Origin: Undibacterium sp. YM2
GTDB lineage: Bacteria; Pseudomonadota; Gammaproteobacteria; Burkholderiales; Burkholderiaceae_D
Assembly: GCF_009937975.1 (NCBI RefSeq)
Contig: NZ_AP018441.1
Coordinates: 5,642,001 to 5,706,000, forward strand
DNA: 64,000 nucleotides
Reading direction: 5' to 3'
Shown here: piece by piece, positions 7,923 through 38,627 of the stretch
Numbering within the stretch: the first letter of the stretch is position 1
Layout of the letters: the number at the start of each line of letters is the position of its first letter
The notes under the pieces: model-generated
The model's database searches: none
What the model was told of the DNA's origin: nothing
What the model saw: the letters and a program-made list of their open reading frames with translations, nothing else
Made by a program: the position numbers and the translations under genes

Positions 7923-8041
7923 GATTCGAATTCCAAAAGTTGATTGCGACAAAATGAGCCAACCGGAGACTACTGGTCACCAATTGCGCGCCTGAATTTG
8001 CGATTAAAACCTTGCTATGGGTATGGGCAAGTTCGGGCAGG

Positions 8042-8075
8042 AGTATAAGAAGTGAATATGACAGGCAAGTGAAAC
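8042..8075 (-). promoter_or_regulatory. Pho box and -10 element of phoX
   Basis: Read on the minus strand: GTTTCAC-TTGC-CTGTCAT (8075 down to 8058) is a pair of 7-base PhoB half-sites at the normal 11-base period, the second perfect and the first 5/7. Ten bases further on is TATACT (8047-8042), the spacing expected for a PhoB-dependent promoter in which the Pho box replaces the -35. The implied leader is about 115 bases. Confidence 0.7.
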
Positions 8076-8194
8076 GCGGGATTTTTTCTTTACAACACTT
8101 GCGCCAGGCACCCAAATCGCTTGCTACTCCTGGCCGGAAAATTCTTTGCACAAATCCCGCGCTGCTCTCTTCCGGCATCGCTGGCCAACACTTT

Positions 8195-8235
8195 TGCAAC
8201 TGAATTGCATTTTTGAGGCATAATAAGCATATATA
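8195..8235 (+). promoter_or_regulatory. Palindromic operator over zur promoter
   Basis: TGCAAC-TGAA-TTGCAT (8195-8210) is an inverted repeat whose right arm TTGCAT can serve as the -35. CATATA/TATATA at 8228-8235 can serve as the -10. The same 12 fixed bases recur at 10674-10689 ahead of the ZnuD-like operon. This fits an autoregulated Zur-type repressor site; the regulator assignment is inferred. Confidence 0.6.
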
Positions 8236-8336
8236 GAAGGCAGACGAGAGACGGTGTGTGGACTTTACTTAGACAGTAATTAGACCGTACTTAAACCGTA
8301 AGCAGCACGTTCTTGTCCCTGCCAGCAAACGATGGA

Positions 8337-8843
8337 ATGACTATGAAATCACCCTCTACCAGAGCCAAACCGGCAACAACTGCCCATCATCATGGCGCAG
8401 CCTCGACACTGTTGTCGGGGGCTGGCGTGCGCGTAACCGATGCGCGCCTGAATGTCTTGTCTGAACTCTTGTCCAGCCACCGCGCACTGTCGCATCTGGA
8501 AGTGCAGGATGCCTTGCCCGACATGGACAGGGTCACCCTGTACCGCGCACTGGATTGCCTGACCGATGCCGGGCTGGCACATAAAATTTCTGGCGATGAC
8601 AGGGTATTCCGCTACAGCACGGGTAGTGAGACTGCGGGCAACAAGGACCATCCAGCCCAGCATCAGCACGGACATTTCAAATGCACCCGTTGTGCCAGAG
8701 TATTTTGTCTGGATGATGCCAAACAGCCGCCAGGCTTGCGCGAGCAATTGCAGGCAACCTTGCAGACGACCCTGGGGCGCGGCTTTCAAAGTCACGATAT
8801 AGAGCTGACCATCAAAGGCTGGTGCGCCGACTGCGCCAAATAG
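8337..8843 (+). CDS. zur: Fur-family metalloregulator, probably Zur
   Basis: A Fur-superfamily repressor of 168 residues from ATG 8337 (a TTG at 8313 and another ATG at 8343 are alternatives). An N-terminal winged helix (TDARLNVLSELL; DRVTLYRALDCL) is followed by a dimerisation domain with a His-rich approach (HQHGHFKC) and two CxxC pairs, Cys116/119 and Cys163/166, that would hold the structural zinc. I call it Zur rather than Fur from context: a COG0523 GTPase follows at 53 bases, and a ZnuD-like receptor lies downstream under an identical palindrome. The sequence alone does not decide the metal. Confidence 0.8.
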   Translation: MTMKSPSTRAKPATTAHHHGAASTLLSGAGVRVTDARLNVLSELLSSHRALSHLEVQDALPDMDRVTLYRALDCLTDAGLAHKISGDDRVFRYSTGSETAGNKDHPAQHQHGHFKCTRCARVFCLDDAKQPPGLREQLQATLQTTLGRGFQSHDIELTIKGWCADCAK

Positions 8844-8896
8844 GCGAGCTTACGTAAATCTGTAGATCAACTATATTGAAGTATTAGAGAAAAATC

Positions 8897-9985
8897 ATGG
8901 CACTAATCCCTACCACTATCCTGACCGGCTTTCTGGGTGCAGGTAAAACCACGCTGCTGAACCGTATCCTGCAGGAAGATCACGGATACAAGATTGCCGT
9001 CATCGAGAATGAATTTGGCCAGGAAAACATAGACAATGAAATCCTGGTTCAGGACAGCAATGAGCAGATCGTGGAAATGAATAATGGTTGCGTCTGCTGC
9101 ACGGTGCGCGGTGACCTGATCGTTGCGCTGAGCAAGCTGATACAGCAAAAGAATGAAGGCAAACTGAGTTTTGACCGCGTCATCATAGAAACCACAGGCC
9201 TGGCCAACCCTGGCCCGGTAGCACAGACTTTTTTTGTCGATGAAGAAGTCGGCACCTATTACATGCTTGATGCGGTGGTCACGGTGGTTGATGCCCGCCA
9301 TGGCATGCAGCAACTCGATGAACATGAAGAAGCCCAGCGCCAGGTTGGCTTTGCCGACAAAATCCTGTTATCGAAAACTGATCTGGTTGATGGCGGAACA
9401 GTGGCTGCACTGCGCGCCCGTCTGACCCGCATGAACCCGCGTGCACCGATTACCGTTGTCGACTTTGGCAAGATCGCCATCAGCGAAGTGCTGGACCTGA
9501 AGGGCTTCAACCTGAATGCCAAGCTGGATCTCGACCCCGACTTCCTGCGTGCTGAAGAAGCAGAACATGAGCACGATCATGAAGCTTGCGATGCAGATTG
9601 CACGCATGAACACCATCATCATAAAGAACATACTGAGCACGGTGACCATGCCCCGCAGGTACATAACCACCATCACGCCCATCATTCTGACGATATCGCC
9701 GCCTTTGTGTTCAAGAGCACGCGCCCTTTCAATACGGGGCAGCTTGATGAATTCCTCGGTGGTCTGGTGCAAGTCTTTGGCCCACGCATGTTGCGCTATA
9801 AAGGTGTATTACTGATGGAAGGCGCAGACCGCAAGGTCATTTTCCAGGGGGTGCATCAAATCATGGGGACCGATGTGGGTGCCAAGTGGGGAGAAAACGA
9901 ATTACGTGAAAGCAAGATGGTATTTATTGGCAAAAATCTACCTAAAGACATATTTATTCAAGGTTTGGAGCATTGTTTGGTATAA
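8897..9985 (+). CDS. CobW/COG0523 GTPase, probable zinc metallochaperone
   Basis: A 362-residue G3E-family GTPase. Walker A is GFLGAGKTT (11-19), the metal-binding CxCC motif is CVCC (65-68), and SKTD (159-162) is the guanine-specificity motif. A C-terminal CobW_C domain follows a histidine-rich linker (about 224-263). COG0523 proteins of the ZigA/YeiR/ZNG1 type move zinc to client enzymes and are commonly Zur-controlled. It lies 53 bases downstream of the Fur/Zur gene with no separate strong promoter seen, so the two are probably co-transcribed. Vitamin B12-related CobW function is unlikely: no cobalamin genes are nearby. Confidence 0.9.
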   Translation: MALIPTTILTGFLGAGKTTLLNRILQEDHGYKIAVIENEFGQENIDNEILVQDSNEQIVEMNNGCVCCTVRGDLIVALSKLIQQKNEGKLSFDRVIIETTGLANPGPVAQTFFVDEEVGTYYMLDAVVTVVDARHGMQQLDEHEEAQRQVGFADKILLSKTDLVDGGTVAALRARLTRMNPRAPITVVDFGKIAISEVLDLKGFNLNAKLDLDPDFLRAEEAEHEHDHEACDADCTHEHHHHKEHTEHGDHAPQVHNHHHAHHSDDIAAFVFKSTRPFNTGQLDEFLGGLVQVFGPRMLRYKGVLLMEGADRKVIFQGVHQIMGTDVGAKWGENELRESKMVFIGKNLPKDIFIQGLEHCLV

Positions 9986-25901: not shown

Positions 25902-26546
25902 ATGTATACTCTTTACTATTGCCCTGGCACCGCCAGCATGGTCGTTCATCTGGCACTACTGGAAATTGGCGCTGCCCATGAATTGAAACTCGTCGATGTA
26001 GAAAAAAACCAGCAAAAAGATCCCGATTATCTGCGTCTGAATCCAAATGGTGTCGTGCCTACCCTGGTCATCGATAACCGCCCTTATCTGGAATCCGCCG
26101 CCTTGTTGATGCTGCTGGCAGAGCGCCACCCGGAAGCTGGCCTTGCACCCGCCGCTGGCACCGTTGAACGCGATCTGTGGCGGCAGTGGATCATCTTCAT
26201 CAGCGGCAGCCTGCAATCGGCATTCCGTGCCTGGTTTTATCCGGCTGAACTGGGTTTTACCGAGCATAGTGAAGCCAGCAAAGCGGCCTTGCAAAAACGT
26301 ATCGCAGCCATCTGGGACCAGCTTGACCTGCACCTGAGCAAGAATGGCCCCTATCTGCTCGGCGAGACTTTTTCCGGCGCAGATTTGCAATTGACCATGC
26401 TGATGCGCTGGTCACGCAATATGCCACGTCCGGCAACGCAATGGCCAGCCTTGAACAAACTCGCGCAACTGATCATCGCCCGCCCTAGCTGGCAAAAGAT
26501 GGTGCGCATCGAAGGCCTGGAAACCTGGCCTAAAACCAGTAATTAA
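25902..26546 (+). CDS. Glutathione S-transferase family protein
   Basis: A 214-residue two-domain GST: a thioredoxin-like N-terminal half with the glutathione-site block LNPNGVVPTLVIDNRPYLESAALLM (Pro and Glu-Ser contact residues), and an all-helical C-terminal half with GETFSGADLQLTMLM. Substrate unknown. AAGGA precedes the ATG. It is followed at 9 bases by the spermidine-synthase-like gene, suggesting a two-gene unit. Confidence 0.93.
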   Translation: MYTLYYCPGTASMVVHLALLEIGAAHELKLVDVEKNQQKDPDYLRLNPNGVVPTLVIDNRPYLESAALLMLLAERHPEAGLAPAAGTVERDLWRQWIIFISGSLQSAFRAWFYPAELGFTEHSEASKAALQKRIAAIWDQLDLHLSKNGPYLLGETFSGADLQLTMLMRWSRNMPRPATQWPALNKLAQLIIARPSWQKMVRIEGLETWPKTSN

Positions 26547-26555
26547 TTCCTCCGC

Positions 26556-27350
26556 ATGCAAAAGACTGCTCTTAATCTGTACAAGGCGACTCAGGCAGCG
26601 ACCATGGACTTGCCCGAGGTCACCATCGCCGAGCACCTTGGTGTACGCACCCTGCATCTGTCTTCTGATGCGATACAGGGTGCCATGCGCATGGCCGTGC
26701 CTGACCAGATAGAGCTGGAATATGTGCAGCAAATGATGATGTGGATGCTGTTCAAATATAAACCGCAGCACGTTGTGCAACTGGGCCTGGGTGCAGCCGC
26801 GCTGACCAAGTTCTGTTACCGCAATTTTCCACAGGCCAGGGTCACTGCGATAGAACTGAACCCCAAGGTCATCGCCACCTGCCACCAGCATTTCAAACTA
26901 CCGGTCAACGATGAACGCCTGCAAGTGCTGTGCATGAATGCGCTGGACTATGTCAACAACAGCGCCAACCACGGCCAGGCTGATGTCTTGCAAATTGATT
27001 TGTATGATGCCGCTGCCGAAGCCCCGGCACTCGGCAGCGCCGCGTTCTACCAGGCCTGTGCCAATTGCCTCAGCGATGATGGCATGCTGACCGTGAACCT
27101 GTTTGGCAATCCACAAAATTACCGCGCCAACTGCAATGCCAATATTGCTGCCTTGCAAGAGGCTTTTGATGCCGTGGTCTGGCTGCCACTGGTGCACGAT
27201 GCCAACACGGTGGCCATCGCCTTCAAACAAGCCCCGTCAGTCGATTTTGAAGACTTGTATGAACGCGCAACGGCAATACGCCTGGCCTGTAAATTACCGG
27301 CTGCAAAATGGGTGAATGGTTTGAAGGCCTGGATGGCGGAACACACCTAA
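26556..27350 (+). CDS. Spermidine synthase-like protein
   Basis: A 264-residue class I methyltransferase-fold protein of the spermidine synthase superfamily. It has a Rossmann glycine motif (VVQLGLGAAALTKF), an acidic ribose-binding residue in AIELNPKV and the aspartate stretch VLQIDLYDA. True spermidine synthases have a GGGDG motif and conserved aminopropyl-acceptor residues that I do not see clearly. It may therefore be one of the many paralogues with a different, unknown activity. Its stop overlaps the stop of the convergent VWA gene. Confidence 0.82.
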   Translation: MQKTALNLYKATQAATMDLPEVTIAEHLGVRTLHLSSDAIQGAMRMAVPDQIELEYVQQMMMWMLFKYKPQHVVQLGLGAAALTKFCYRNFPQARVTAIELNPKVIATCHQHFKLPVNDERLQVLCMNALDYVNNSANHGQADVLQIDLYDAAAEAPALGSAAFYQACANCLSDDGMLTVNLFGNPQNYRANCNANIAALQEAFDAVVWLPLVHDANTVAIAFKQAPSVDFEDLYERATAIRLACKLPAAKWVNGLKAWMAEHT

Positions 27351-28552
27351 GCCGCTCGCGTAGTAACTATGCCCGCCTCTGCCGCCCATTGCTCCAGGTT
27401 CTGGCGTTTGATGGCGGCTGCCATCAGGTCAGGGAATAAATCCGGCGTGCAGGCAAAGCAATGCGCCCCCATGGCCGTCAGTGTGGCGGCGTTGTGGTGG
27501 TCATAGGATGGTGCGCCATTATCATCAAGTGCCAGCAGGCAAATCACGCTGACGCCATTGCGTATCATGCTGGCTGCCCTTTGCAGCATTTCCTTGTTAT
27601 TGCCGCCTTCATACAAATCACTGATGAGGACGAAGATGGTTTCCCTTGGTCTTTGCACCAGCCCCTGACAATAAGCCAGTGCCCGGTTGATATCGGTACC
27701 GCCACCGAGTTGCGTGCCAAATAAAACCTCTACCGGGTCACTCAATAAATGGCTTAAATCCATGACCACGGTATCGAATACCACGACAGAAGTGCTGACT
27801 GATTTGATACTGGCCAGCACCGCACCAAACACACTGGCATACACGACCGAGGGTGCCATGGAACCGCTCTGGTCTATGCACAGGACGATATCGCGCAAGG
27901 ACTGGCCCTTGCGGCCAAAACCTATGCGCGTCTCAGGGATGATGGTCTGGTAGTCATGCTGGTAATGCCTGAGATTGGCCTTGATGGTACGCATCCAGTC
28001 TATCTCGTTGTGGCGTGGCCTCAGGTTACGTACCGCACGCTGCAGACTGCCGGCCACGGCCTGGCGCAATGGCGTGCCCAGCTTTTTCTCCAGTTCCTGC
28101 ACCACCTTGGCAACCACCTGGCGCGCAGTCGCCTTGGTTTTGTTGGGCATGACACGGTTCAGGCTCAGCAGGGTGGCGACCAGATGCACATCCGCCTCTA
28201 CGGCCTGCAACATTTCTGGCTCCAGCAGCATTTGCTGCAAACCCAGGCGATCCAATGCATCCCGCTGCATGACTTGCACGACAGAAGAAGGGAAATAATC
28301 ACGGATATCTCCCAGCCAGCGTGCGACGCTGGGCGCGGATGAACCCAGGCCAGCACGCTTGCCTGACTGTTGCTCATTCGGCTCATAAAGAGCGTTTAAA
28401 GCACGGTCTATGGCCAGGTCTTGCTGCGACAGGTCTGAGCCAGCTTGCTCAGCCTCGCTGCCCAGTACCAGTCGCCAGCGACGCAGGTTTTCTGCTGAAC
28501 TTACTGTTGCATTTTCTATTAAATTTTCTGTTAACTTCGGCTCATTACTCAT
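27347..28552 (-). CDS. VWA/MIDAS protein of a MoxR-VWA operon
   Basis: A 401-residue protein whose C-terminal half is a von Willebrand A domain with an intact metal site: DQSGS (227-231), the threonine in GGGTDINRAL and the aspartate in LISDLYEGG. The first 200 residues are helical and unassigned. VWA proteins paired with MoxR ATPases act as adaptors or substrates in chaperone-like assembly or metal insertion. It is the last gene of a five-gene operon and overlaps the DUF5682 gene by ATGA. No signal peptide, so cytoplasmic. Confidence 0.92.
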   Translation of the reverse strand: MSNEPKLTENLIENATVSSAENLRRWRLVLGSEAEQAGSDLSQQDLAIDRALNALYEPNEQQSGKRAGLGSSAPSVARWLGDIRDYFPSSVVQVMQRDALDRLGLQQMLLEPEMLQAVEADVHLVATLLSLNRVMPNKTKATARQVVAKVVQELEKKLGTPLRQAVAGSLQRAVRNLRPRHNEIDWMRTIKANLRHYQHDYQTIIPETRIGFGRKGQSLRDIVLCIDQSGSMAPSVVYASVFGAVLASIKSVSTSVVVFDTVVMDLSHLLSDPVEVLFGTQLGGGTDINRALAYCQGLVQRPRETIFVLISDLYEGGNNKEMLQRAASMIRNGVSVICLLALDDNGAPSYDHHNAATLTAMGAHCFACTPDLFPDLMAAAIKRQNLEQWAAEAGIVTTRAA

Positions 28553-30858
28553 GCATTTGCTCCCGGCTGATCATCATGCAAAGTCTTGCCTAATATAGCC
28601 TGTAATACCGGTATCACCAGTCTTGCCCTGCTCTGGTCAAGCGCAGTGTCGGTATGTAGCGTCACTGCTGCTGCGCCCTTGCTGGCGACAGCGCGCTCAC
28701 CGAGTTGATAGCGCTCGGGTCCGGCAAAACTGGAGAAGGTACGGCGCAGCAAGGGCAAGAGTTCAATAAAGGTTTCTGCACCAAGACTGGCCATCCAGGA
28801 ATTGATCAACTGCCATAGCATGTCATTGTGTATCAGCAAGGCACCGCTGCCTTGCAAGAAGCCTTCTATCCAGTGCGCAGTCAGCAGAGGCGTCTGCGCA
28901 TGGGAACAATGTACCGCCAGTTGCTGGCCAGCCTGCTCTTCGCTCCACTGCCCTTGCTCAGTCAGTATGCGGGCACAGCGTCCAGCGATCAGGCCATGTG
29001 AACTCTCCTGCCTTGCAGTCTGTACCAGCGAGGCAAACCAGTTGTTCAGGTAATCCTCATTCTGCAGCATGCGCACAGCCTGGTCGGCGGCGATGAGGTC
29101 CTTGACCATTTGTGCTGCAGGTTCATCAGCCAGGCCTCTGGCACCAACTGGCAGGGCAATACAGATGCGGCTCAGCAGCTTGCTGACTACCAGTTCCATT
29201 GCCGCTGTATCGGTATTACGTACATTGCCATAACGCATGGCATTCGCCAGCGCTGGCAATGCCGCCAGCATATAGCCAAGATCAGGAGTCAGGGCACTGA
29301 CCTCCTCTAGCCTGCGCATGACGTCATGCAGGGCCATGCCGAGATTGGCGAGCAATACCCGTTCTACCAGTTTGGTCAGTTCCGGCAAAGTCTGTGCCCG
29401 TCTTGCCATGTCGATGACATAGGCACTGGCTGCAGTTTCCAGCGTGCTGCCCCAGATATTCGCTTCTATGAGCTTGATCGCAAAATCAGGTTGCCATTCC
29501 AGCCGCCATGCTTCATGAAAGGTGCCGGTTTTGCCGCGCAAGTGCTGGCGCTTGCCCCAGTCTATGCCCAGCAGGGAAAGACGGTAGAGCAGATTACTTT
29601 TTTCCAGATGCGCCGCTTCGCGCAAATCCAGTTCAAGATCAGTGCTGTCTGCACGCACTGCCATGCGGAATTTCTTTTGCAGCAAGGCGACGTTTTGCGG
29701 CAGCGGCAAGTTCGGTGCATCTGCAGGCACGGCACCGAGCCTGTCATTGAGTAGCAACTCCCTGCGTATCAGGCGCAGCGGTGCATCACTGTCATAACAA
29801 AACACGGCACGCGTGGCTTCCATGATTTCATCAAGGCCAGGACGATGACGGTCACGCAGTGCTGCCAGCGTATCTGCCAGGCGTGTGGCCTCAATAATAT
29901 GGGCCGATGAGGCATCAAGATCATGCTTGCGCAGCAAATTCGCCACGTCACTCAACCAGAATAAAACCGCCTGCTCTGGCTGATGCCATAAATGATGATA
30001 CCAGCCAGGTGCCTCGACACCTGCACCATAGCCACTGGCAAATGCCAGCCTGCCATAGCTCCAAGGTGTCCAGGTGGCAGCAACTTTTACCTTGTCCAGC
30101 CCCTTGAGGATGTCAGCATCGTGTTTCGCGGTCGGCATCCTGGCCAGTGCAGGCACATGATACGCGCCACAAACAACGGCAATTTTTTGATAACCGGCTT
30201 TTTCCGCCTGACGCAGCATTTGCCGCATATAGGCTTCACGACGTACTTCAAGTTGATCCTGAAGTTGATCAGATGCCTGCGTGATTTCTGTACGCACGAC
30301 TGTCATCATCTCAGCAATTGCGGCAAACAAATCCAGGCTGTCTGTGCGCTGCTCTACCAGATGATCCCACCAGGTTTCTGTATCGGCAAAGCCAGCAGCC
30401 TGTGCCAGTACCAACAAAGGATCGGCGCGCACCAGGCGAGCCTGCAGATCCAGCTCCTGAACGGACGCTACTTCTGCATTCTCTTCTTCATTCTCATCTT
30501 CTTCGCCTTCATCTTCCTCTGAAGCCTCGCTTTTTTCTGCAGGCAGCAGACGGAATGCCTGCGGCAAGTCACAGAACTGCACAGGGATATTCCCGGCCAC
30601 GGCAAATTGCAATGCCTGCCATTCTGGCGAAAATGCGGCAAAAGGGTAATACACGGCATTTTGTGGTGCATCCGGCACATACAGTAAGAGCGCAACTGGC
30701 GGCTGCATTTCTGCACCGGCAACAAAGGGAATCAGATCATTCGCCTCCGGCGGGCCTTCTATCAGGATGCAATCCGGCTGCAGGGCGTGCAAAGCCTCTT
30801 TCAGGCTGCGTGCGCAACCCGGGCCATGATGGCGGATACCAAACAGGTGTGTGCTCAT
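28549..30858 (-). CDS. DUF5682 protein (TraB/ChaN-like fold)
   Basis: A 769-residue cytoplasmic protein matching DUF5682. The N-terminal block FGIRHHGPGC, the LIEGPPEAND motif and AVVCGAYHVPAL resemble the conserved His/Glu motifs of the TraB/ChaN/EreA group, which includes hydrolases and metal-binding proteins. Between them lies a very acidic insert (about 112-135, mostly Glu and Asp). The C-terminal ~400 residues are helical. It starts 54 bases after the MoxR stop (GGTGG upstream) and overlaps the VWA start by four bases. Biochemical activity is not known. Confidence 0.85.
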   Translation of the reverse strand: MSTHLFGIRHHGPGCARSLKEALHALQPDCILIEGPPEANDLIPFVAGAEMQPPVALLLYVPDAPQNAVYYPFAAFSPEWQALQFAVAGNIPVQFCDLPQAFRLLPAEKSEASEEDEGEEDENEEENAEVASVQELDLQARLVRADPLLVLAQAAGFADTETWWDHLVEQRTDSLDLFAAIAEMMTVVRTEITQASDQLQDQLEVRREAYMRQMLRQAEKAGYQKIAVVCGAYHVPALARMPTAKHDADILKGLDKVKVAATWTPWSYGRLAFASGYGAGVEAPGWYHHLWHQPEQAVLFWLSDVANLLRKHDLDASSAHIIEATRLADTLAALRDRHRPGLDEIMEATRAVFCYDSDAPLRLIRRELLLNDRLGAVPADAPNLPLPQNVALLQKKFRMAVRADSTDLELDLREAAHLEKSNLLYRLSLLGIDWGKRQHLRGKTGTFHEAWRLEWQPDFAIKLIEANIWGSTLETAASAYVIDMARRAQTLPELTKLVERVLLANLGMALHDVMRRLEEVSALTPDLGYMLAALPALANAMRYGNVRNTDTAAMELVVSKLLSRICIALPVGARGLADEPAAQMVKDLIAADQAVRMLQNEDYLNNWFASLVQTARQESSHGLIAGRCARILTEQGQWSEEQAGQQLAVHCSHAQTPLLTAHWIEGFLQGSGALLIHNDMLWQLINSWMASLGAETFIELLPLLRRTFSSFAGPERYQLGERAVASKGAAAVTLHTDTALDQSRARLVIPVLQAILGKTLHDDQPGANA

Positions 30859-30912
30859 CGTTAAGCACCACCCATGCTGATATTGCTATACGTATTCTTG
30901 ATACTCATTTTC

Positions 30913-32004
30913 TTAATGCATGACATCGCGGCAGGCACGATACAGGTCTTTCCAGCCTTCGCGCTCCTTGACCACGGTTTCCAGATATTCCAGCATGACG
31001 ATCTTGTCCTGCACCGGGTCTTTGACTATCGCGCCTACCATACTGGCTGCGATATCCGCGCCGCGCAAAGTGCCGTCACCAAAATGTGCTGCCAGTGACA
31101 TGCCATTGGCGATTACGGATATTGCCTCTGCCGCACTCAAGCTGCCGCTGGAATTTTTGAGCTTGGTCTTGCCATCTGCAGTGACGCCATCACGCAGTTC
31201 ACGGAAGATGGTGACTACCCGGCGTATCTCTTCCAGCGCCGGGATCTCGCCCGGTAATTCCAGTGCACGGCCAAGGCTGGCAACGCGGGTGGCGACGATA
31301 TTGACTTCTTCATCTGCTGTGCGTGGCAAGGGCAACACAACGGTATTGAAGCGGCGCTTGAGCGCACTCGACAATTCATTGACACCACGATCCCTGTCAT
31401 TGGCGGTAGCGATAATATTAAAGCCTTTTTGTGCCTGCACTTCTTCATTCAATTCAGAAATCGGCAAGGATTTTTCTGAGAGTATGGTGATCAGGCTATC
31501 CTGCACTTCAGTCGGAATACGCGTTAATTCTTCTACCCTGCCTATCTTGCCATCACGCATGGCACGCATGATGGGGCTAGGCACCACAGCGTCCAACGAT
31601 GGCCCTTTCGATAGCAGGTGGGCGTAATTCCAGCCATAGCGGACAGTCTCTTCACTGGTACCTGCCGTACCCTGTACGATCAGGGTAGAGTCACCGCTGA
31701 TCGCAGCGGACAAATGCTCTGCTACCCAGGATTTTGCCGTACCGGGTACACCGAGCAATAGCAGCGCCCTGTCGGTTGCGAGTGTGGCTACCGCAATTTC
31801 TATGACCCTGGCATTGCCTATGTACTTGGGAGAAATGACGACACCATTATCCAGCGTGCCGCCGAGCAGATAAGTGGCAACAGCCCAGGGCGACAGTTTC
31901 CAGCGTGGTGGCCTCTGGCGCGTATCGACGGCAGCCAGGGCTTCCAGTTCATTCGCGTATTGTTCTTCAGCGTGTTGGCGAAGTATGCTGTCATTAGTAC
32001 TCAT
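30913..32004 (-). CDS. MoxR-family AAA+ ATPase
   Basis: A 363-residue AAA+ protein. Walker A is GVPGTAKS, and the MoxR region after it includes YGWNYAHLLSKGPS and an IPTEVQDSLITILSEK helix. The Walker B acidic pair is EE (RVEELTRIP) instead of the usual DE of DEINRAP. Sensor 1 is FNIIATANDRD and the arginine finger region is SSALKRRFN. MoxR ATPases remodel or load metals into VWA-partnered complexes. It overlaps the DUF5691 gene by ATGA, so production is coupled. It is the motor of this operon. Confidence 0.93.
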   Translation of the reverse strand: MSTNDSILRQHAEEQYANELEALAAVDTRQRPPRWKLSPWAVATYLLGGTLDNGVVISPKYIGNARVIEIAVATLATDRALLLLGVPGTAKSWVAEHLSAAISGDSTLIVQGTAGTSEETVRYGWNYAHLLSKGPSLDAVVPSPIMRAMRDGKIGRVEELTRIPTEVQDSLITILSEKSLPISELNEEVQAQKGFNIIATANDRDRGVNELSSALKRRFNTVVLPLPRTADEEVNIVATRVASLGRALELPGEIPALEEIRRVVTIFRELRDGVTADGKTKLKNSSGSLSAAEAISVIANGMSLAAHFGDGTLRGADIAASMVGAIVKDPVQDKIVMLEYLETVVKEREGWKDLYRACRDVMH

Positions 32005-33608
32005 TGCTGCTCCAGAAAAGTGTGCATCATTTCGCTACGGAAGCGAAGCAATGCGAGAAAATCATCTATTGTGGTTTGCCATTTATCCCAGTGCGGATCC
32101 GCTCGTGGCCAGTCACGTTCATAGTCATGTAATTGCGCTGGATCAATGACCAGCGCCAGAGTATTCAGCACTTGTTTCAGCGACCAGAATTCTGCTGTCA
32201 ACTCATTCAGCTTATTGCGTACATGCGCCACAATCGCAATCGACAGGGCAGCAGGCAATCGCCTCTTTTGTGCTGCCACCTGCTGGAATAATTCCAGTAT
32301 GGTCCACACAGAAAAATTCGATGAAGCCTGAGCTGGTGCCAGCAATTCCATGAAGAATTCATATACAAAACCGGATTGCACATTAGCCAGTATCTTATGG
32401 ACAAAGGGCGACAGAATCGCCCTGTGCTTGCTGTCAGTGTGCATGCTCAGGCGGCTAAATTCCAGACACCAGCCTTCAAACTGCGGTGAGGTATTATCCT
32501 GCATGCCTGGTCTGGCAGACAGGGTTTGCAGTGCTGTCGCCCAGCCAGTCAGCAAGACTTGCTGGTAATCTGTCTTTGCTGCCAATGCGAATAATTGTAC
32601 CGGGCTGAGCTGCCATTTTTCTGACCAGTACAAGGGCGAGACTGCTGCGAGCATGTCCAGCAACCAGCCAGCTTTTTCACCTGTGCCGTGATAAGTGGTG
32701 CTGCCCACACCATCACGCTGCATGGCTTTATCACGTTCGAGTGGCAGGCAGACTACCAGTTCAGTATCACCGGTAATGTCCGGTCTGATGCTCAGCAAAG
32801 TATCCAGTCTGGCGCGCATGCGCAGTTCAAGCAAAGAATCTGGCAGGCTCAATAACAAAGTTTGCGCGGTTGTGCGCACTTCCTTGCGTTTATCGTCGAG
32901 TGCGCGCTCCAGAAATTCCTGATCGGCTACGCTCAAATTTTCTTTCAAACACTGTATCAGGCGTATGCGATGCTCAGGTGGCTCGGTACTCCAGACTTCC
33001 TGCAGCATGGTGAGGCCCAGTTCCGGGTCTTTGCTACGGCTGAGTCGCAATACCTCCAGCCTTTGCTCCACCGTGCCGGTTTCCCATAGCTCATCCTCAA
33101 CCAGCTCTGTATCTGCCTGCCAGTTCCAGGCCGGGTTCTGCCTTGCCAGCCATTTGCCACGCTCGCCCATGACTGCGGCGACATAGGGCCGGAAAACAGG
33201 CTGCGTGCGCCCAAGTTCCAGCATGGCAGGTAAAAATTTGTAGGGCAAATGACAGCCATACTGCCTTGCCAGGCTCAGCCATTCAAAACGCAGTTCGGGA
33301 TAAGTGCCCTGCAATAATAAAGATAATTTTGTTTCTGCCTGTTGCGGGCAAGGCTGGAGTTTTTCATCGGCGGCTATTGCAGTGGCGCGGCTGGTGATTG
33401 CCAAAGTCTGTGCCCCGGCACGCGTCCATAAGTCCAGTGCCGCGATGCGTTCCCACAGATCCGATTCGGGCATATCAGCCTGCTTTGTTGCATCAGCAAA
33501 AACGCTATCCTGCAAGGCGGCAGGCAAGTCATTCTGCGCTTGCGCTCCGGCGCGTGAAGTGCCCAGCAACAGAGATTTTTTTATGCTGGCGGTAAGCATC
33601 GACGTCAT
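32001..33608 (-). CDS. DUF5691 family protein
   Basis: A 535-residue cytoplasmic protein, largely alpha-helical. The stretch RLIQCLKENLSVADQEFLER and what follows resemble HEAT/armadillo repeats, which would suit a scaffold. I place the start at ATG 33608, which overlaps the stop of the SWIM gene as ATGA; a TTG at 33617 is less likely. It matches the DUF5691 proteins that accompany SWIM, MoxR and VWA genes in other bacteria. No catalytic motif seen. Confidence 0.85.
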   Translation of the reverse strand: MTSMLTASIKKSLLLGTSRAGAQAQNDLPAALQDSVFADATKQADMPESDLWERIAALDLWTRAGAQTLAITSRATAIAADEKLQPCPQQAETKLSLLLQGTYPELRFEWLSLARQYGCHLPYKFLPAMLELGRTQPVFRPYVAAVMGERGKWLARQNPAWNWQADTELVEDELWETGTVEQRLEVLRLSRSKDPELGLTMLQEVWSTEPPEHRIRLIQCLKENLSVADQEFLERALDDKRKEVRTTAQTLLLSLPDSLLELRMRARLDTLLSIRPDITGDTELVVCLPLERDKAMQRDGVGSTTYHGTGEKAGWLLDMLAAVSPLYWSEKWQLSPVQLFALAAKTDYQQVLLTGWATALQTLSARPGMQDNTSPQFEGWCLEFSRLSMHTDSKHRAILSPFVHKILANVQSGFVYEFFMELLAPAQASSNFSVWTILELFQQVAAQKRRLPAALSIAIVAHVRNKLNELTAEFWSLKQVLNTLALVIDPAQLHDYERDWPRADPHWDKWQTTIDDFLALLRFRSEMMHTFLEQQ

Positions 33609-34963
33609 AGGAGACAATCACTTTCAAGACTCAAGAATTGCCGATCTGTCTGTACCGAGAGTGGGGTAAAACAATAGCCATCCCATTCACCTACCAATGT
33701 CATGGGCTGACCACCACTGACGGCCTGCAATTGCCATCCATAGGCAAAGTTTTCTGGCAAGTGCAGGGCTTGCTGGTCAGGCAAAATGGCAAGCCCGCGT
33801 TCACCATCCAGTTGCAGGCGTAGCCCGGACAAACTCAGTGGCAGGCGTTCGATAAAGGGATTGGCGGCAATTGCCCTGGCATAGCTTTGCATACCTGCGT
33901 CAAATTGCGTAGCCGGGAATTGATATTCTTTAATGACGCTGACATTGCGCTGATCCTTGATCAAGGCACGCAGAGGAGCTGCCCCCGGATAAAACACCAG
34001 TTCGCCCTCAAATTCACTACCGACGGCGATAGGCCGGTCAAAGCCCTGGGTACCAACGGCATATTGCAAAAACATTGCCCACAGCCCGCTGCTCTTACCG
34101 CATAAATAGGTGATGCGTGTACGCACACGCTCGTCATCACGGGTTTTCTGCGCCACTACCTGCCAGCAATCGACTTGCCCGGCTTGCGCCAGCAAACTAT
34201 CCTGACTCTGGTTCCAGCCCAGCATGCTGCGCACATCTTCCTGCAAATCGGGTGTCAGGCTTTCTATCTTTTGATAAGCCCTGATCAGCAGATAAATGGC
34301 GGCTATTTCACGTGCCAGTTGTTCTTCCCAATCGCTGATGCTGGTTTGAAAAGCCAGCCTGCCTGCGCGTGACAGACGGCCAGCCAACGGTGCCATCTGT
34401 GCATCAACCATACGTGCTGCGATGGCATCCCACTGAGCGGTACCGGCATTACGCAAGCTTGAAAAACCTTCCCTGGCGAGATCTTCCAGCCAGGTCTGCA
34501 ATTCCTGCAAACCACGGGCAACTTTGGCCTCGCGTTTTTCTTCACGCTTTTGCGCCTGCTCTGCCTGCTGTGCAAGTTTTTCAGGCGTCAGGTTTTGCAG
34601 CTTTTCTTCTGCTGTTTCCTGTTTCTTCGTGGCGCGGGCTTCGCGGCTTTGCAACCAGTCCAGGTTCCATTGCGGTGCCGCTGTCGCAGCAAATAATTCT
34701 GCTTTTCCTGAGTACAGCAAAAACAGGCCCAGCCCATGCTTGCAAGGGAATTTACGGCTGGGGCAACTACATTTGAAAGCAGGCTCACGCAAATCTATCT
34801 GGGCGCGATAAGGGGTGGAGCCACTACCCTGGCATTCGCCCCAGACAGCAATGTCGGAATTGCCGAGATTACTCCATTTGGAGGCTGTTGCCAATGCACT
34901 GCCAGCTTTTGCTGAACTGGCATCAGGCGCGAGTGCAAGAATTTGATCGGTACTTAAAGTCAC
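33605..34963 (-). CDS. SWIM zinc-finger protein
   Basis: A 452-residue protein with a SWIM zinc-binding motif CxCx6CxH: Cys65, Cys67, Cys74 and His76 in FKCSCPSRKFPCKHG. SWIM fingers bind DNA or proteins. A Glu/Lys/Gln-rich coiled coil follows (about 115-155), then a helical middle and a mixed C-terminal domain. The start is GTG 34963 with no clear ribosome site, and no ATG lies near. It is the first gene of the five-gene operon. Its promoter should lie in 34964-35172. Confidence 0.88.
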   Translation of the reverse strand: MTLSTDQILALAPDASSAKAGSALATASKWSNLGNSDIAVWGECQGSGSTPYRAQIDLREPAFKCSCPSRKFPCKHGLGLFLLYSGKAELFAATAAPQWNLDWLQSREARATKKQETAEEKLQNLTPEKLAQQAEQAQKREEKREAKVARGLQELQTWLEDLAREGFSSLRNAGTAQWDAIAARMVDAQMAPLAGRLSRAGRLAFQTSISDWEEQLAREIAAIYLLIRAYQKIESLTPDLQEDVRSMLGWNQSQDSLLAQAGQVDCWQVVAQKTRDDERVRTRITYLCGKSSGLWAMFLQYAVGTQGFDRPIAVGSEFEGELVFYPGAAPLRALIKDQRNVSVIKEYQFPATQFDAGMQSYARAIAANPFIERLPLSLSGLRLQLDGERGLAILPDQQALHLPENFAYGWQLQAVSGGQPMTLVGEWDGYCFTPLSVQTDRQFLSLESDCLL

Positions 34964-35172
34964 TTGTTTGAGCGTAACGTTTTACTGTGTAGATTGCTGT
35001 CTTAGTTTCTGACATTCATGATCAGGTCAAAGTGCTTGCAAGGCCCTGACAGGTTCCCGCATCAACAGCACTTTTCTTGGCTCAGCATTTAATCATACTT
35101 TTATGACAAGCGGAAAATTTCAGCTTCTTCTTGCCATTTTTTCTTCACAGTAGAACCGCAATGCACGGAAAC

Positions 35173-35577
35173 TTACCCAGCGTCTGCTTCTTCATGATGA
35201 CAGCAAACACACAACTTGTTGCCATCTGGGTCGCGGAAATAAGCGCCATAGTAATTTGGATGATACTGCGGACGCAAACCCGGTGGTCCTTCGCAAGTGC
35301 CGCCATGTGCCAGTGCTGCGTCGTAGGCACGCTGCACCGTTGCACGCGAGGCAGCCAGCAATGCCACCATCTGGCCATTGCCATGCTGTGCGGCTTCGCC
35401 GTTATAAGGTTTGCCTATGACAAACAAAGGGCGTGGCTGGTCTGCTGACATCCAGCCTGCCCAGGGCTTGCCTGCATCCTTGAATTTCAAGACCAGGCCC
35501 AACTCAGTCATGAGGGGAGAGTAGAACGAAAAAGATTTCTCAAAATCCTGTATACCTGTGAATACATGGGAGATCAT
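35173..35577 (-). CDS. VOC/glyoxalase-fold protein
   Basis: A 134-residue protein of the vicinal-oxygen-chelate superfamily. It opens with MISHVFTGIQDFEKSFSFY and ends with YYGAYFRDPDGNKLCVCCHH, the usual beta-alpha-beta-beta-beta signature. Family members include glyoxalases, dioxygenases and antibiotic-binding proteins; the metal-ligand pattern is not decisive. It lies 27 bases downstream of the DUF2493 gene. The 209 bases after it separate it from the SWIM operon. Confidence 0.88.
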   Translation of the reverse strand: MISHVFTGIQDFEKSFSFYSPLMTELGLVLKFKDAGKPWAGWMSADQPRPLFVIGKPYNGEAAQHGNGQMVALLAASRATVQRAYDAALAHGGTCEGPPGLRPQYHPNYYGAYFRDPDGNKLCVCCHHEEADAG

Positions 35578-35604
35578 GCTACATCCTTTGCGCTTATTGC
35601 GTCA

Positions 35605-35970
35605 TTACTGTGTAAAAATCCTGACCGGTATCTGTGCCTGCTCAGCAAGTGTCACGGCATGTAGTGTACCGCGAGCGCAACCAGGTTTGCCATAGTCGGC
35701 ATGAAAAGCCAGCACCAGGTCTATGCCTGTCGCCAGCATTCTGACATTCAGGCCCTTCCATCCTTCACCAGGAAATGCGCGGTAGTCAGCATTGGTTTTT
35801 TTCATCGCTTCGACTGCAAAACCAAATTCCAGTGCAACTGCTTTGGCGTGCGCATCTATGCCAGGCGTATCACCTGTGACGATGATGGTCGCAGGCGGTA
35901 GCTGAGCCAGTTCGCGGCGGATAGCGGCCTGGCCTTCCCACTGAGTGGCACCTGTAATCAATACTCTCAT
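35605..35970 (-). CDS. DUF2493 / SLOG-type Rossmann protein
   Basis: A 121-residue protein matching DUF2493 (YspA-like, SLOG superfamily): MRVLITGATQW at the start, IIVTGDTPGIDAHAKAVA in the middle, and FPGEGWKGLNVRML plus CARGTLHAVTLAE later. SLOG domains bind nucleotides or nucleotide-derived ligands and are often found in conflict or stress systems. It begins 24 bases after livF on the same strand and is followed by the VOC gene, so it may be carried on the liv transcript. Ligand unknown. Confidence 0.85.
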   Translation of the reverse strand: MRVLITGATQWEGQAAIRRELAQLPPATIIVTGDTPGIDAHAKAVALEFGFAVEAMKKTNADYRAFPGEGWKGLNVRMLATGIDLVLAFHADYGKPGCARGTLHAVTLAEQAQIPVRIFTQ

Positions 35971-35994
35971 ACAGCAAAGTCTAGCACGGCTAGC

Positions 35995-36798
35995 TCAATG
36001 ATTCTTTTTGGCCAGACCCAGGTAGGTATCGATCACGCGCTGGTCATTTGCCAGTTCTGCGGCATCACCTTCGAGCGCAATCTGCCCGGTTTCCAGCACA
36101 TAGGCATAGTCGGCCACCTGCAAGGCGGCGCGGGCATTTTGCTCTACCAGTAGAATCGCAACGCCGGTTTGCTTGAGACGCTGGATAATGTGAAAAATCT
36201 CCTTGACGATCAGTGGTGCAAGGCCAAGGCTAGGTTCATCGAGCATCAGCAATTGCGGCTTGGCCATGAGCGCACGGCCTACTGCCAGCATCTGGCGTTC
36301 ACCGCCTGACAATGTCCCTGCTTCTTGTGTGCGTCTTTCTTTGAGGCGCGGGAACAGATCGAAGACGACATCGAGCTGGTCAGCATAATTTTTTTCACCG
36401 GCCTGGTAGCGGCGATAGCTGCCCAGCAAAAGATTGTCTTCGACCTTCATGCTGGCGAACAGCTCGCGTTTTTCTGGCACCAGTGACATGCCCTGGGCAA
36501 CACGATTTTCTATACTGACGCTGGCGAGGTTTTTATCCGATAAAAGTATCTGACCGCGCATGCTGCCACTGGCAGGCAGGGCACCGGCGATGGCATTGAG
36601 CATCGTCGATTTTCCCGCACCATTCGGGCCGATGACGGTAACGATTTGCCCGACACCGACACGTATATTGGCAGGTTGCAAAGCCTCTACCTTGCCATAG
36701 AATACTTGCAGATCCTTGGTTTGCAATAGGGCCGGTTCAGACAAGGATGTCGTCGCCAGGATGACTGGCGTGGTGTCTGCAGAATTTGTAGTCGTCAT
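35995..36798 (-). CDS. livF: Branched-chain-type ABC transporter ATPase LivF
   Basis: The second cytoplasmic ATPase of a HAAT-family amino-acid/aromatic-acid importer. From ATG 36798 (sharing one base with the preceding stop, TGATG) it is 267 residues. Walker A is GPNGAGKST, the signature is LSGGERQML, Walker B LLMLDEPS, and the LivF-type block is [11 protein letters not shown]. An N-terminal extension of about 25 residues precedes the domain. Its partner ATPase is fused to LivM in the gene before it. Confidence 0.95.
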
Positions 36799-38627
36799 CA
36801 ATCTATCCCACCCAGATAAGCTTCCAGCACAGCCGGATGTTGTTGTACGTCTTGTGGCAAGCCTTCGGCAATCTTGGTGCCGAATTCCATGACCACCAGT
36901 TGATCTGTCAGATTCATGACGAAATCCATGTCATGCTCGACCAGCAGGATACTCATACCCTCTGCACGCAGCTTGCGCAAGAGCTCGGCCAGTTCCTGTT
37001 TTTCCTTATAACGCAAGCCGGCGGCTGGCTCATCTAGTAGCAGCAAACTAGGATCGCAGCACAGTGCCCTGGCGATTTCCAGTATGCGTTGCTGGCCCAG
37101 GGCCAGGCTGCCTGCTTCTTCATTGATCAGATGTGCCAAACCTACCCTTTCCAACTGCCTTTTTGCCTCTGCCAACAGTGAATTTTCTACCTTGCCGTCA
37201 CGGCGCAAGATGCTGGCAATGACTTCCATGACATCACCACCCTTGGCACGCAAATGCGCACCTATCGCGACGTTTTCGAGTACTGTCATGCTGGCCAGCA
37301 AACGCACATGCTGGAAACTGCGGCCTATGCCCAGCTTGACGATTTCACGCGAAGGCAGGTTGGCGATGTCCTGCAATTTGCCATCACGGTAAAAACGCAC
37401 GGCACCACTGGTCAAGGGCAAGACGCCGGTGACCAGGTTGAACATCGTTGATTTGCCTGCACCATTCGGGCCTATCAGGCCAACGATCTGCCCGGCGCTG
37501 ACAGTGAACTGCATGTCATTCACGGCAACCAGGCCGCCAAATTGCTTGCGCGCCTTGTCGATTTCGAGGATGACGGTATCGACTGGCGGTTTGGCACGTA
37601 CTGGCAATATTGCAGCATCTGCAGCGACCTGTATGCCCTTATCTTCTGGCAGCCATTTGGCAAACAGGCGCTTGCTCCAGCTGGCTAAATAAGGCCAGAC
37701 ACCATCACGTGCGCGTTGCAGCAACAAGACCAGCAAGACACCGAACACGATGACTTCAAAATTTCCATTTGCCCCCAGCAATGCAGGCAAGATGCTTTGC
37801 AGTTTGTCTTTCAGCAGCGTCAGCAGGGCTGAGCCCAACAAGGCTCCCCAGACATGACCAGCACCACCCACCACGGCCATGAACAGGTATTCAATACCGG
37901 CATTCAAGCCAAATGGCGTGGGATTGACGGCGCGTTGCAAGTGCGCATACAACCAGCCGGAAACACTGGCCAGCATGGCAGCGATGACGAAGATGATGAC
38001 TTTCATGCGTGCAGTATTGACACCCATGGCTTCTGCCATGACGCCACCACCTTTTAGTGCGCGTATGGCACGGCCAGGACGTGATTGCAGCAGATTTTGT
38101 ACCGCAACTATCGCCAGCAACAATATCACCCAGATCAGGCCAAACATGCTGCGTCCTGTATCGAGTTTAAGTCCCACGATTTCTATGGGAGGTATGCCAT
38201 TCAGGCCATCATATTTGCCGAGGAATTCGAGGTTACCAAACAGGAAGAATAGCGACAGCCCCCAGGCGATAGTCCCCAGTGGCAGATAGTGGCCGGACAG
38301 GCGCATGGTAATCAGGCCTATCGCCAGTGCTGCCACCATGGTCAGCACCAGGCCAGCCAGCAAACCCAGCCACGGCGAATAACCCAGGGCCGTGCTCAGA
38401 TAGGCCGTGGAGTAAGCACCGAGGCCAACAAAAGCTGCCTGGCCAAAAGAGGTCATGCCGCCTACCCCTGTCAGCAAGACCAGGCCCAGCGCGACGATCG
38501 CATACAGGCCTATGTAGTTGGCCAGAGTGATCCAGAATTCAGGTACCGGCACCAGGGGGAACAGCAAGACCAGCGCAAGCAATATCCATTTACCGTGTTT
38601 GATGCCGTTGGTGAGGAGTGCTTTCAT
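36798..38627 (-). CDS. livG: LivM-LivG fusion: ABC permease plus ATPase
   Basis: A 609-residue fusion. Residues about 1-325 are a LivM permease with roughly ten membrane segments and the cytoplasmic-loop motif [19 protein letters not shown]. Residues about 345-609 are a LivG ATPase with Walker [13 protein letters not shown], signature LALGQQR and Walker [12 protein letters not shown]. The linker (about 326-350) is short and hydrophilic. The start shares one base with the livH stop (TAATG). Such fusions occur in betaproteobacterial HAAT systems and fix permease:ATPase stoichiometry. Confidence 0.95.

Follow-up and report, generated by a model that had tools for sequence, protein, structure and literature searches.

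A conserved SWIM-DUF5691-MoxR-DUF5682-VWA operon of Undibacterium sp. YM2 and its relation to the yehLMPQ genes of Escherichia coli K-12

In the NorQ-NorD system a MoxR ATPase is paired with a VWA protein; according to an excerpt of PMC13036017, the VWA protein inserts a finger into the ATPase ring, and the twisting of a linker allows metal to be inserted. A general scheme for MoxR-vWA pairs, with peptide capture and ATP-driven remodelling, is outlined in the available part of PMC7159879 (Kaur et al. 2020), which also describes ternary conflict systems, where MoxR and vWA are accompanied by another large protein. YehL is one of the MoxR subfamilies named in the accessible portion of PMC3893208. 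In Escherichia coli K-12 the gene row reads yehL (MoxR), yehM (DUF5682), yehP (VWA) and yehQ (SWIM). A literature search returned no functional study of these four genes among the matches listed, nor any paper naming DUF5691 or DUF5682. Here we describe a related operon of Undibacterium sp. YM2, which consists of five minus-strand genes (27347-34963) transcribed in the order SWIM-DUF5691-MoxR-DUF5682-VWA, as read from the open reading frames (ORFs). Positions refer to the stretch that was analysed, 64,000 nucleotides of contig NZ_AP018441.1, called the window hereafter.

Three of the five window proteins are homologous to products of the E. coli row. The MoxR protein shares 42% identity with YehL (E 2e-78), the DUF5682 protein 30% identity with YehM over 533 residues (E 2e-43), and the VWA protein 34% identity with YehP (E 2e-71); yehQ, for a SWIM protein, comes next in E. 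coli. Unlike in the window, where the SWIM gene is first, it is the last gene of yehLMPQ. Furthermore, the E. coli row has no DUF5691 match, and DUF4132 and WGR proteins are encoded upstream in its place: yehL is preceded by yehF (WGR), the pseudogene yehH, yehI (DUF4132) and yehK. Judged by these comparisons, the operon is a SWIM-DUF5691 variant of the YehL-type MoxR-VWA system and not a new class, since its core matches yehL-yehM-yehP. The original prediction, made from the letters of the window, had spoken of an uncharacterised system. This holds for function, of which the literature searched gave none, but not for the core, which matches that of E. coli and includes a member of a named MoxR subfamily. 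Since E. coli K-12 carries this core as an orphan operon, knowing what either type does would account for genes present in nearly every E. coli genome.

Two main types of the operon occur: type A, with the gene order of the window, and type B, which is like that of E. coli. Among seven type B copies beside E. coli, MoxR-DUF5682 is present in all seven, VWA in five, a YehQ-like gene in four and a YehI-like gene in six. Five of the YehI-like genes lie upstream of MoxR and one (L110) behind DUF5682; at L108 just the start of a WGR gene is seen at the contig end. The DUF4132 assignment comes from Pfam for L104, L105, L106, L109 and L110 and from blastp alone for L107. The two types are not strictly exclusive, since a DUF4132 (YehI-like) gene directly follows VWA in two type A loci of Bacteroidota (L061:13450-16404 and L077:13356-16361) and type A locus L036 has a WGR gene in its flank. 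A third arrangement, VWA-MoxR-DUF5682, was found in genome G650 (L239:5390-11449), where two genes without Pfam match precede the operon and the DUF5682 protein is divergent (952 residues). Throughout, the MoxR-DUF5682 core persists, mostly with VWA, while the other genes vary.

Table 1. Positions of the operon genes, junctions, motifs and borders in the window
Feature	Position	Strand	Remarks
SWIM zinc-finger gene	33605-34963	minus	GTG start, 452 aa, first gene; Pfam SWIM
DUF5691 gene	32001-33608	minus	ATG start, 535 aa; Pfam DUF5691 E 1.9e-109
MoxR AAA+ ATPase gene, YehL type	30913-32004	minus	363 aa; Pfam AAA_5 E 2.9e-38
DUF5682 gene	28549-30858	minus	769 aa; Pfam DUF5682 E 4e-259
VWA (CoxE-like) gene	27347-28552	minus	401 aa, last gene; Pfam VWA_CoxE E 1e-49
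ATGA overlap SWIM/DUF5691	33605-33608	minus	read from sequence
ATGA overlap DUF5691/MoxR	32001-32004	minus	read from sequence
ATGA overlap DUF5682/VWA	28549-28552	minus	read from sequence
MoxR/DUF5682 gap, 54 bases	30859-30912	minus	read from sequence; least-often overlapping junction in operon family
SWIM motif CSCPSRKFPCKH (CxCx6CxH), residues 65-76	34736-34771	minus	alignment
Walker A GVPGTAKS, MoxR residues 85-92	31729-31752	minus	alignment
Walker B Glu-Glu, MoxR residues 158-159	31528-31533	minus	usual pair is Asp-Glu
First GxxH motif of DUF5682, G7-I-R-H10-H11	30826-30840	minus	alignment
E34 of LIEGP, DUF5682	30757-30759	minus	81/81 type A, 8/8 type B
Second GxxH motif of DUF5682, G231-A-Y-H234	30157-30168	minus	G231, H234 in 81/81 type A, 8/8 type B
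VWA MIDAS DQSGS, residues 227-231	27860-27874	minus	D227-x-S229-x-S231
MIDAS completing residues	T286 at 27695-27697, D312 at 27617-27619	minus	
Spermidine-synthase-like gene	26556-27350	converging on VWA	4-base overlap of its end with VWA stop
Accessory stretch, limits approximate	27347-35172	n/a	operon and upstream region, spermidine-synthase-like gene to glyoxalase gene
Glyoxalase gene	35173-35577		upstream border of accessory stretch

The window MoxR is placed in the YehL subfamily by its closeness to YehL in sequence rather than by published subfamily criteria. Its core is 45% identical to that of YehL (E 6e-70), as compared to E 0.02 for RavA and E 2e-5, 0.01 and 2 for three AAA_5 sequences of its own genome; one of these may be a wrong ORF, and the three are the usable ones from five places fetched among the 26 AAA_5 places of the genome. 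In a MoxR tree, type B and G650 form a branch separate from the type A sequences (support 99/100), while little support (86/72, from a bootstrap still unsettled) was obtained for the fork that sets A, B and G650 together apart from the remaining sequences. The Walker A residues G85, P87, G88, T89 and K91 are conserved in 6/6 type B rows and 73/74 type A rows, the remaining one having a gap. The same counts hold for the Glu-Glu pair in Walker B, which the G650 copy also carries. NorQ is the solved relative that covers most of the MoxR domain (residues 50-246, E 1.7e-8); Midasin has the better score (E 6e-12), but for 143-240 only. The VWA partner of this ATPase is encoded within the same operon, and its MIDAS is intact, as had been noted before; the site is conserved in all three type B rows and in 72 of 73 type A rows, with a gap in the remaining one.

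The order of the genes is well conserved among relatives. An alignment scan with DUF5682 gave at least 573 tblastn-confirmed stretches in named genomes, of which the best 80 were taken as loci; being top-scoring, these are close relatives and not a random sample. Their record titles assign them to Pseudomonadota, Planctomycetota, Acidobacteriota, Verrucomicrobiota, Bacteroidota, Chloroflexota, Cyanobacteria and a few other groups. All five genes, in the same order and on the same strand, are present in 66 of the 80. Ten of the 14 incomplete loci are near a contig end (L035, L041, L044, L047, L051, L057, L058, L064, L072 and L074; in L041 VWA is missing downstream as well), leaving L033, L037, L052 and L076 as true exceptions, and the genome of L033 has DUF5691 on a separate contig. 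In a survey of the junctions of 64 loci, in which each gene was taken to begin at the in-frame start closest to the stop of the gene before it, overlaps were frequent at three junctions (39, 38 and 46 loci) and found in eight loci at the MoxR/DUF5682 junction. Extra genes are inserted at this last junction in L032, L038, L046, L054 and L060. In L046 (Allochromatium warmingii, 7829-9846) these are a gene for a C-5 cytosine DNA methylase and an overlapping unidentified gene, possibly a restriction-modification pair. In L031 and L059 the SWIM and DUF5691 genes are fused into a single ORF.

The proteins are also inherited together. Among 299 genomes of Pseudomonadota, DUF5682 is found in 12 and DUF5691 in six, all within those 12; the count leaves out two DUF5691 genomes below the cut-off. 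The six genomes with DUF5682 and without DUF5691 have, by score, E. coli-type DUF5682 only. Among 194 genomes of the phylum to which an Oscillatoriales record belongs, nine have DUF5682 and eight DUF5691, again all within the nine, eight DUF5691 genomes and one DUF5682 genome below the cut-off being left out. Without correction for ancestry the hypergeometric p values are 1e-9 and 2e-13, respectively, or 2e-8 and 5e-12 when the two genomes chosen for carrying the genes are removed. In three of the eight Oscillatoriales-phylum genomes DUF5691 and DUF5682 are unlinked, so that linkage does not explain their co-occurrence there. Pairwise protein distances in 65 rows, both fused loci left out, correlate at 0.83-0.92 for the ten protein pairs, with a permutation maximum of 0.17. 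Partial correlations, which are rough, make MoxR-VWA stand out and place DUF5682 between the motor and the adaptor. The five genes thus are a genuine conserved unit. The original prediction of one ATP-driven unit is supported by the common inheritance and the conserved order, and its five domain assignments, coordinates, three ATGA overlaps and 54-base gap agree with Pfam and with direct reading of the sequence.

The constant enzyme-like partner of MoxR is the DUF5682 protein, a member of a large family (7967 of 7993 scored database candidates reach E 0.001). Its structural model (mean pLDDT 85.6) shows an alpha/beta head of about residues 1-280 with a putative active site, followed by a long helical body. 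The hallmark of TraB, Tiki, ChaN and EreA proteins is a set of two GxxH motifs and a conserved glutamate. A set of this TraB/Tiki type is found in DUF5682 in 81/81 type A rows. In the first motif R9, H10 and H11 are present in 81/81 type A and 8/8 type B rows, and G7 in 81/81 versus 4/8; the divergent G650 protein has the second motif only. In the head, the invariant His, Glu and Asp residues lie near strand ends. DUF5682 differs from TraB/Tiki/ChaN/EreA proteins by some 500 extra, mostly helical residues. A profile match to this superfamily at Pfam level was not found, one of 40 family members reaching ChaN with E 0.23, and hhalign gave no significant profile match (P 0.0037 for TraB, 0.09 for EreA and 0.11-0.75 for six controls). 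A sequence search with the TraB protein of a congener did not retrieve chain DQ, a putative TraB-family subunit, and Foldseek gave no match reaching E 0.001 for the DUF5682 or SWIM models. The N-terminal domain of DUF5682 may thus resemble the TraB/Tiki/EreA superfamily, as suggested by the motifs, with weak support from profiles and fold. The TraB/ChaN likeness proposed earlier stands to this extent, and it gives the family a possible place beside TraB/Tiki. DUF5682 is probably a metal-dependent hydrolase.

The SWIM protein matches the Pfam SWIM model with E 9.5e-5 (22.3 bits, cut-off 19.6), and C65, C67 and P68-H76 of its motif are invariant across 42 aligned proteins. In the AlphaFold2 model (mean pLDDT 90.9) a head of about residues 1-113 is followed by long helices and, according to the model and structure matches, a C-terminal OB-like beta region of about 256-440. 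The protein may be a nucleic-acid-binding adaptor, for which the modelled fold gives weak support; the earlier suggestion that nucleic acid or protein is sensed is upheld to this extent. A homology of the SWIM protein to YehQ was rejected, the similarity being limited to the SWIM motif, as was one of DUF5691 to DUF4132/YehI (local profile comparison, probability 0.4%). The start of the DUF5691 protein was taken at ATG, and in the ORF listing its frame reaches an upstream TTG at 33617. Plasmid copies show some variation. In Hymenobacter a fusion of 1009 residues (L209:4186-7215) has the SWIM motif at its start, as CSCPSRVFPCKH with V in place of K71 and without a Pfam SWIM match, and DUF5691 at 499-1000; a gene of unknown type (L209:8365-8976) lies between MoxR and DUF5682. 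In Rhizobium (L206:5521-6498) the SWIM motif is found just upstream of the annotated start of the first gene, which itself lacks it, and this annotation is probably too short.

We propose that the five genes specify a remodelling machine built on a YehL-type MoxR-VWA pair, together with a client and an adaptor dedicated to it, a reading to which we give a probability of roughly 0.55. MoxR would form an ATPase ring, presumably a hexamer, and the VWA protein would be a co-chaperone that grips the client via its MIDAS. The client would be DUF5682, which MoxR-VWA would activate, remodel or load with metal. SWIM-DUF5691 would act as a single adaptor unit and set the time or the target of the machine's action. 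The OB-like region of the SWIM protein hints at a trigger in which nucleic acid takes part. Remodelling of DUF5682 is proposed by analogy with NorQ-NorD and the general MoxR-vWA scheme. The main reason for regarding DUF5682 as the client is that it is the constant enzyme-like partner in three arrangements, with a core shared across changing partners. A more elaborate form of this proposal, which we hold to be speculative, is a widespread ATP-powered licensing switch. The SWIM-OB sensor of nucleic acid and the fast-evolving DUF5691 would recognise a trigger and hand DUF5682, as a new TraB/Tiki-type metallohydrolase, to the Glu-Glu MoxR-VWA ring, which would arm it. Since the adaptor appears exchangeable (SWIM-DUF5691, DUF4132/WGR with a separate SWIM protein, or other), one effector core could serve several sensors, E. 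coli included. The comparison makes it testable that MoxR-VWA acts on DUF5682 and that the adaptor is interchangeable. For other workers the most useful point is that the core can readily be put to the test in E. coli K-12.

Several other explanations have to be weighed against the proposed remodelling machine. By analogy with the ternary systems in the available part of PMC7159879, the operon could be an anti-phage or anti-plasmid conflict system, in which SWIM-DUF5691 would sense the nucleic acid or protein of an invader and MoxR-VWA would fire DUF5682 as a toxic hydrolase; we regard this as a tentative option. The window copy is accessory. DUF5682 is present in eight of 43 genomes of the genus (four of type A, three of type B and a fragment, judging by score) and 13 of 145 of the family (one below the cut-off), as well as in the 12 Pseudomonadota genomes mentioned above, the own genome being counted in all three sets, and this spread fits a conflict system. 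So does the site in congeners G313 and G340, which is cleanly empty: the two flanking genes are direct neighbours, their aligned ends about 35 bases apart. Congeners G323 and G326 also lack the operon, and other DNA of about 0.7 and 2 kb fills the gap there, while G319 carries it at the same site. Type A copies of G338 and G306 lie elsewhere, away from the window's flanking genes, with the spermidine-synthase-like orthologue on another contig. Plasmid copies point the same way: 31 of 72,556 plasmid records match, some of them chromosome-sized. Four were examined, three type A and one type B, and the copies of Methylosinus (whose incomplete gene table lists no VWA), Hymenobacter and Iodobacter, unlike that of Rhizobium, are near recombinase, insertion-sequence (IS), toxin-antitoxin, nuclease or restriction genes. 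The methylase and its neighbour inside the L046 operon are likewise in line with a conflict role. Finally, DUF5691 has the highest ratio of nonsynonymous to synonymous substitution rates (Ka/Ks, window versus G319) of 14 genes compared, a set that two further flanking genes are not part of: 0.22, as compared to 0.125 for DUF5682, 0.048 for SWIM, 0.044 for VWA and 0.008 for MoxR. The same gradient of identity was found against six more distant loci, two of which (L017 and L175) are apparently one sequence. Every one of these ratios is below 1, however, and no known toxic domain was found. PADLOC matched none of the five proteins at E 0.01 or better, and the ten flanking genes are metabolic, peptidase or transport genes, so that the conflict role put forward in the original prediction is still an analogy. 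The likeness to the ternary systems is also limited. The window MoxR scores 24.4 bits with bpMoxR, a model of one subtype in that paper, below the cut-off of 27; no VMAP, iSTAND, beta-propeller or effector names occur among the Pfam matches of the five proteins, which bears on those domains that have a Pfam model; and the main text of PMC7159879 mentions neither SWIM, DUF5682, DUF5691 nor YehL. A viral-contig scan with the window protein, which detects close relatives only, gave no relative. The phage collection held one doubtful record, an unannotated faecal 'Bacteriophage sp.' (L210, MT835988.1) that may be bacterial DNA, with a DUF5682 relative at 27% identity. In PHROGs, DUF5682 and VWA match phrog_30700 and phrog_31592, both of unknown function. 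Of 5426 E. coli genomes, 5284 have a match to yehM, and in 5166 its cover is 80% or more. A purely mobile or defensive view therefore fails for type B, and the earlier statement that no housekeeping function explains the operon is unsafe.

The near-universal yehM would instead suit a general stress or quality-control chaperone with many clients, in which DUF5682 would be a scaffold and not an enzyme. Its residues 423-729 do resemble helical-repeat scaffolds, a match common for helical models, and a MoxR of another subfamily gave stress resistance to E. coli, according to an excerpt of PMC11432383. Such a role seems unlikely to us, however, as the invariant His/Glu/Asp set in the head exceeds what a scaffold needs and the distribution in the surveys made is sporadic. 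We are equally doubtful that the operon serves a metabolic enzyme as a dedicated chaperone for the insertion of metal or cofactor, in the way that NorQ-NorD serves nitric oxide reductase and CoxD-CoxE serves CO dehydrogenase, despite the metal insertion driven by NorQD (PMC13036017, in excerpt), the coverage of the MoxR domain by NorQ and the CoxE type of the VWA protein. NorQ-NorD serves a metabolic metalloenzyme, with iron insertion into cNOR, whereas no such gene was seen to recur beside the operon. This result covers, of the neighbour clusters of L002-L094, the 25 with the widest spread over loci outside L003-L024 (those confined to L003-L024 being unranked). The largest of these is response-regulator-like and found at eight loci, and none is a constant neighbour; a gene for a metabolic client is therefore not evident, unless DUF5682, the enzyme-like partner that stays constant, has this role. 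In E. coli the type B operon has yehF, yehH and yehI for neighbours, a region that goes by the name MolR; the name may hint at a link to molybdenum. A chance neighbourhood of five unrelated genes, for which nothing more than the weak annotation of the single genes speaks, is refuted by the order conserved in 66 of 80 loci, and the co-inheritance of unlinked genes and the SWIM-DUF5691 fusions also contradict it.

Some minor observations concern single copies and the surroundings of the operon. In E. coli HNSQ2209 (H22) yehM is annotated as two pieces, with an IS5 transposase gene beneath the match, and family genomes G445 and G470 have three DUF5682 copies each, of which one scores as type A and two as type B. 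No Rfam match at gathering scores was found in 26000-37000, and a promoter scan of 27000-35700 gave two sites, both on the plus strand, with more in shuffled sequence. A defence island around the operon was considered and rejected, as the ten flanking genes encode, by Pfam, M23 and S41 peptidases, ThiF, GST, spermidine-synthase-like, glyoxalase and SLOG-type proteins and a branched-chain amino-acid transporter. When ten larger ORFs of the window were scanned with PADLOC, the transporter ATPase matched mad3 and mad8, which we take for plain ABC matches, and a weak LmuB match was seen at 54-2192 (20.6 bits, E 2.6e-5). The small SLOG-family protein is of the YspA type and is encoded at 35605-35970, between the glyoxalase and transporter genes. 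Genes for RtcB-type RNA ligases occur in the 10-kb flanks of L007, L048, L049, L054 and L082 according to blastp clustering, with Pfam confirmation for L049; L048 and L082 are similar loci.

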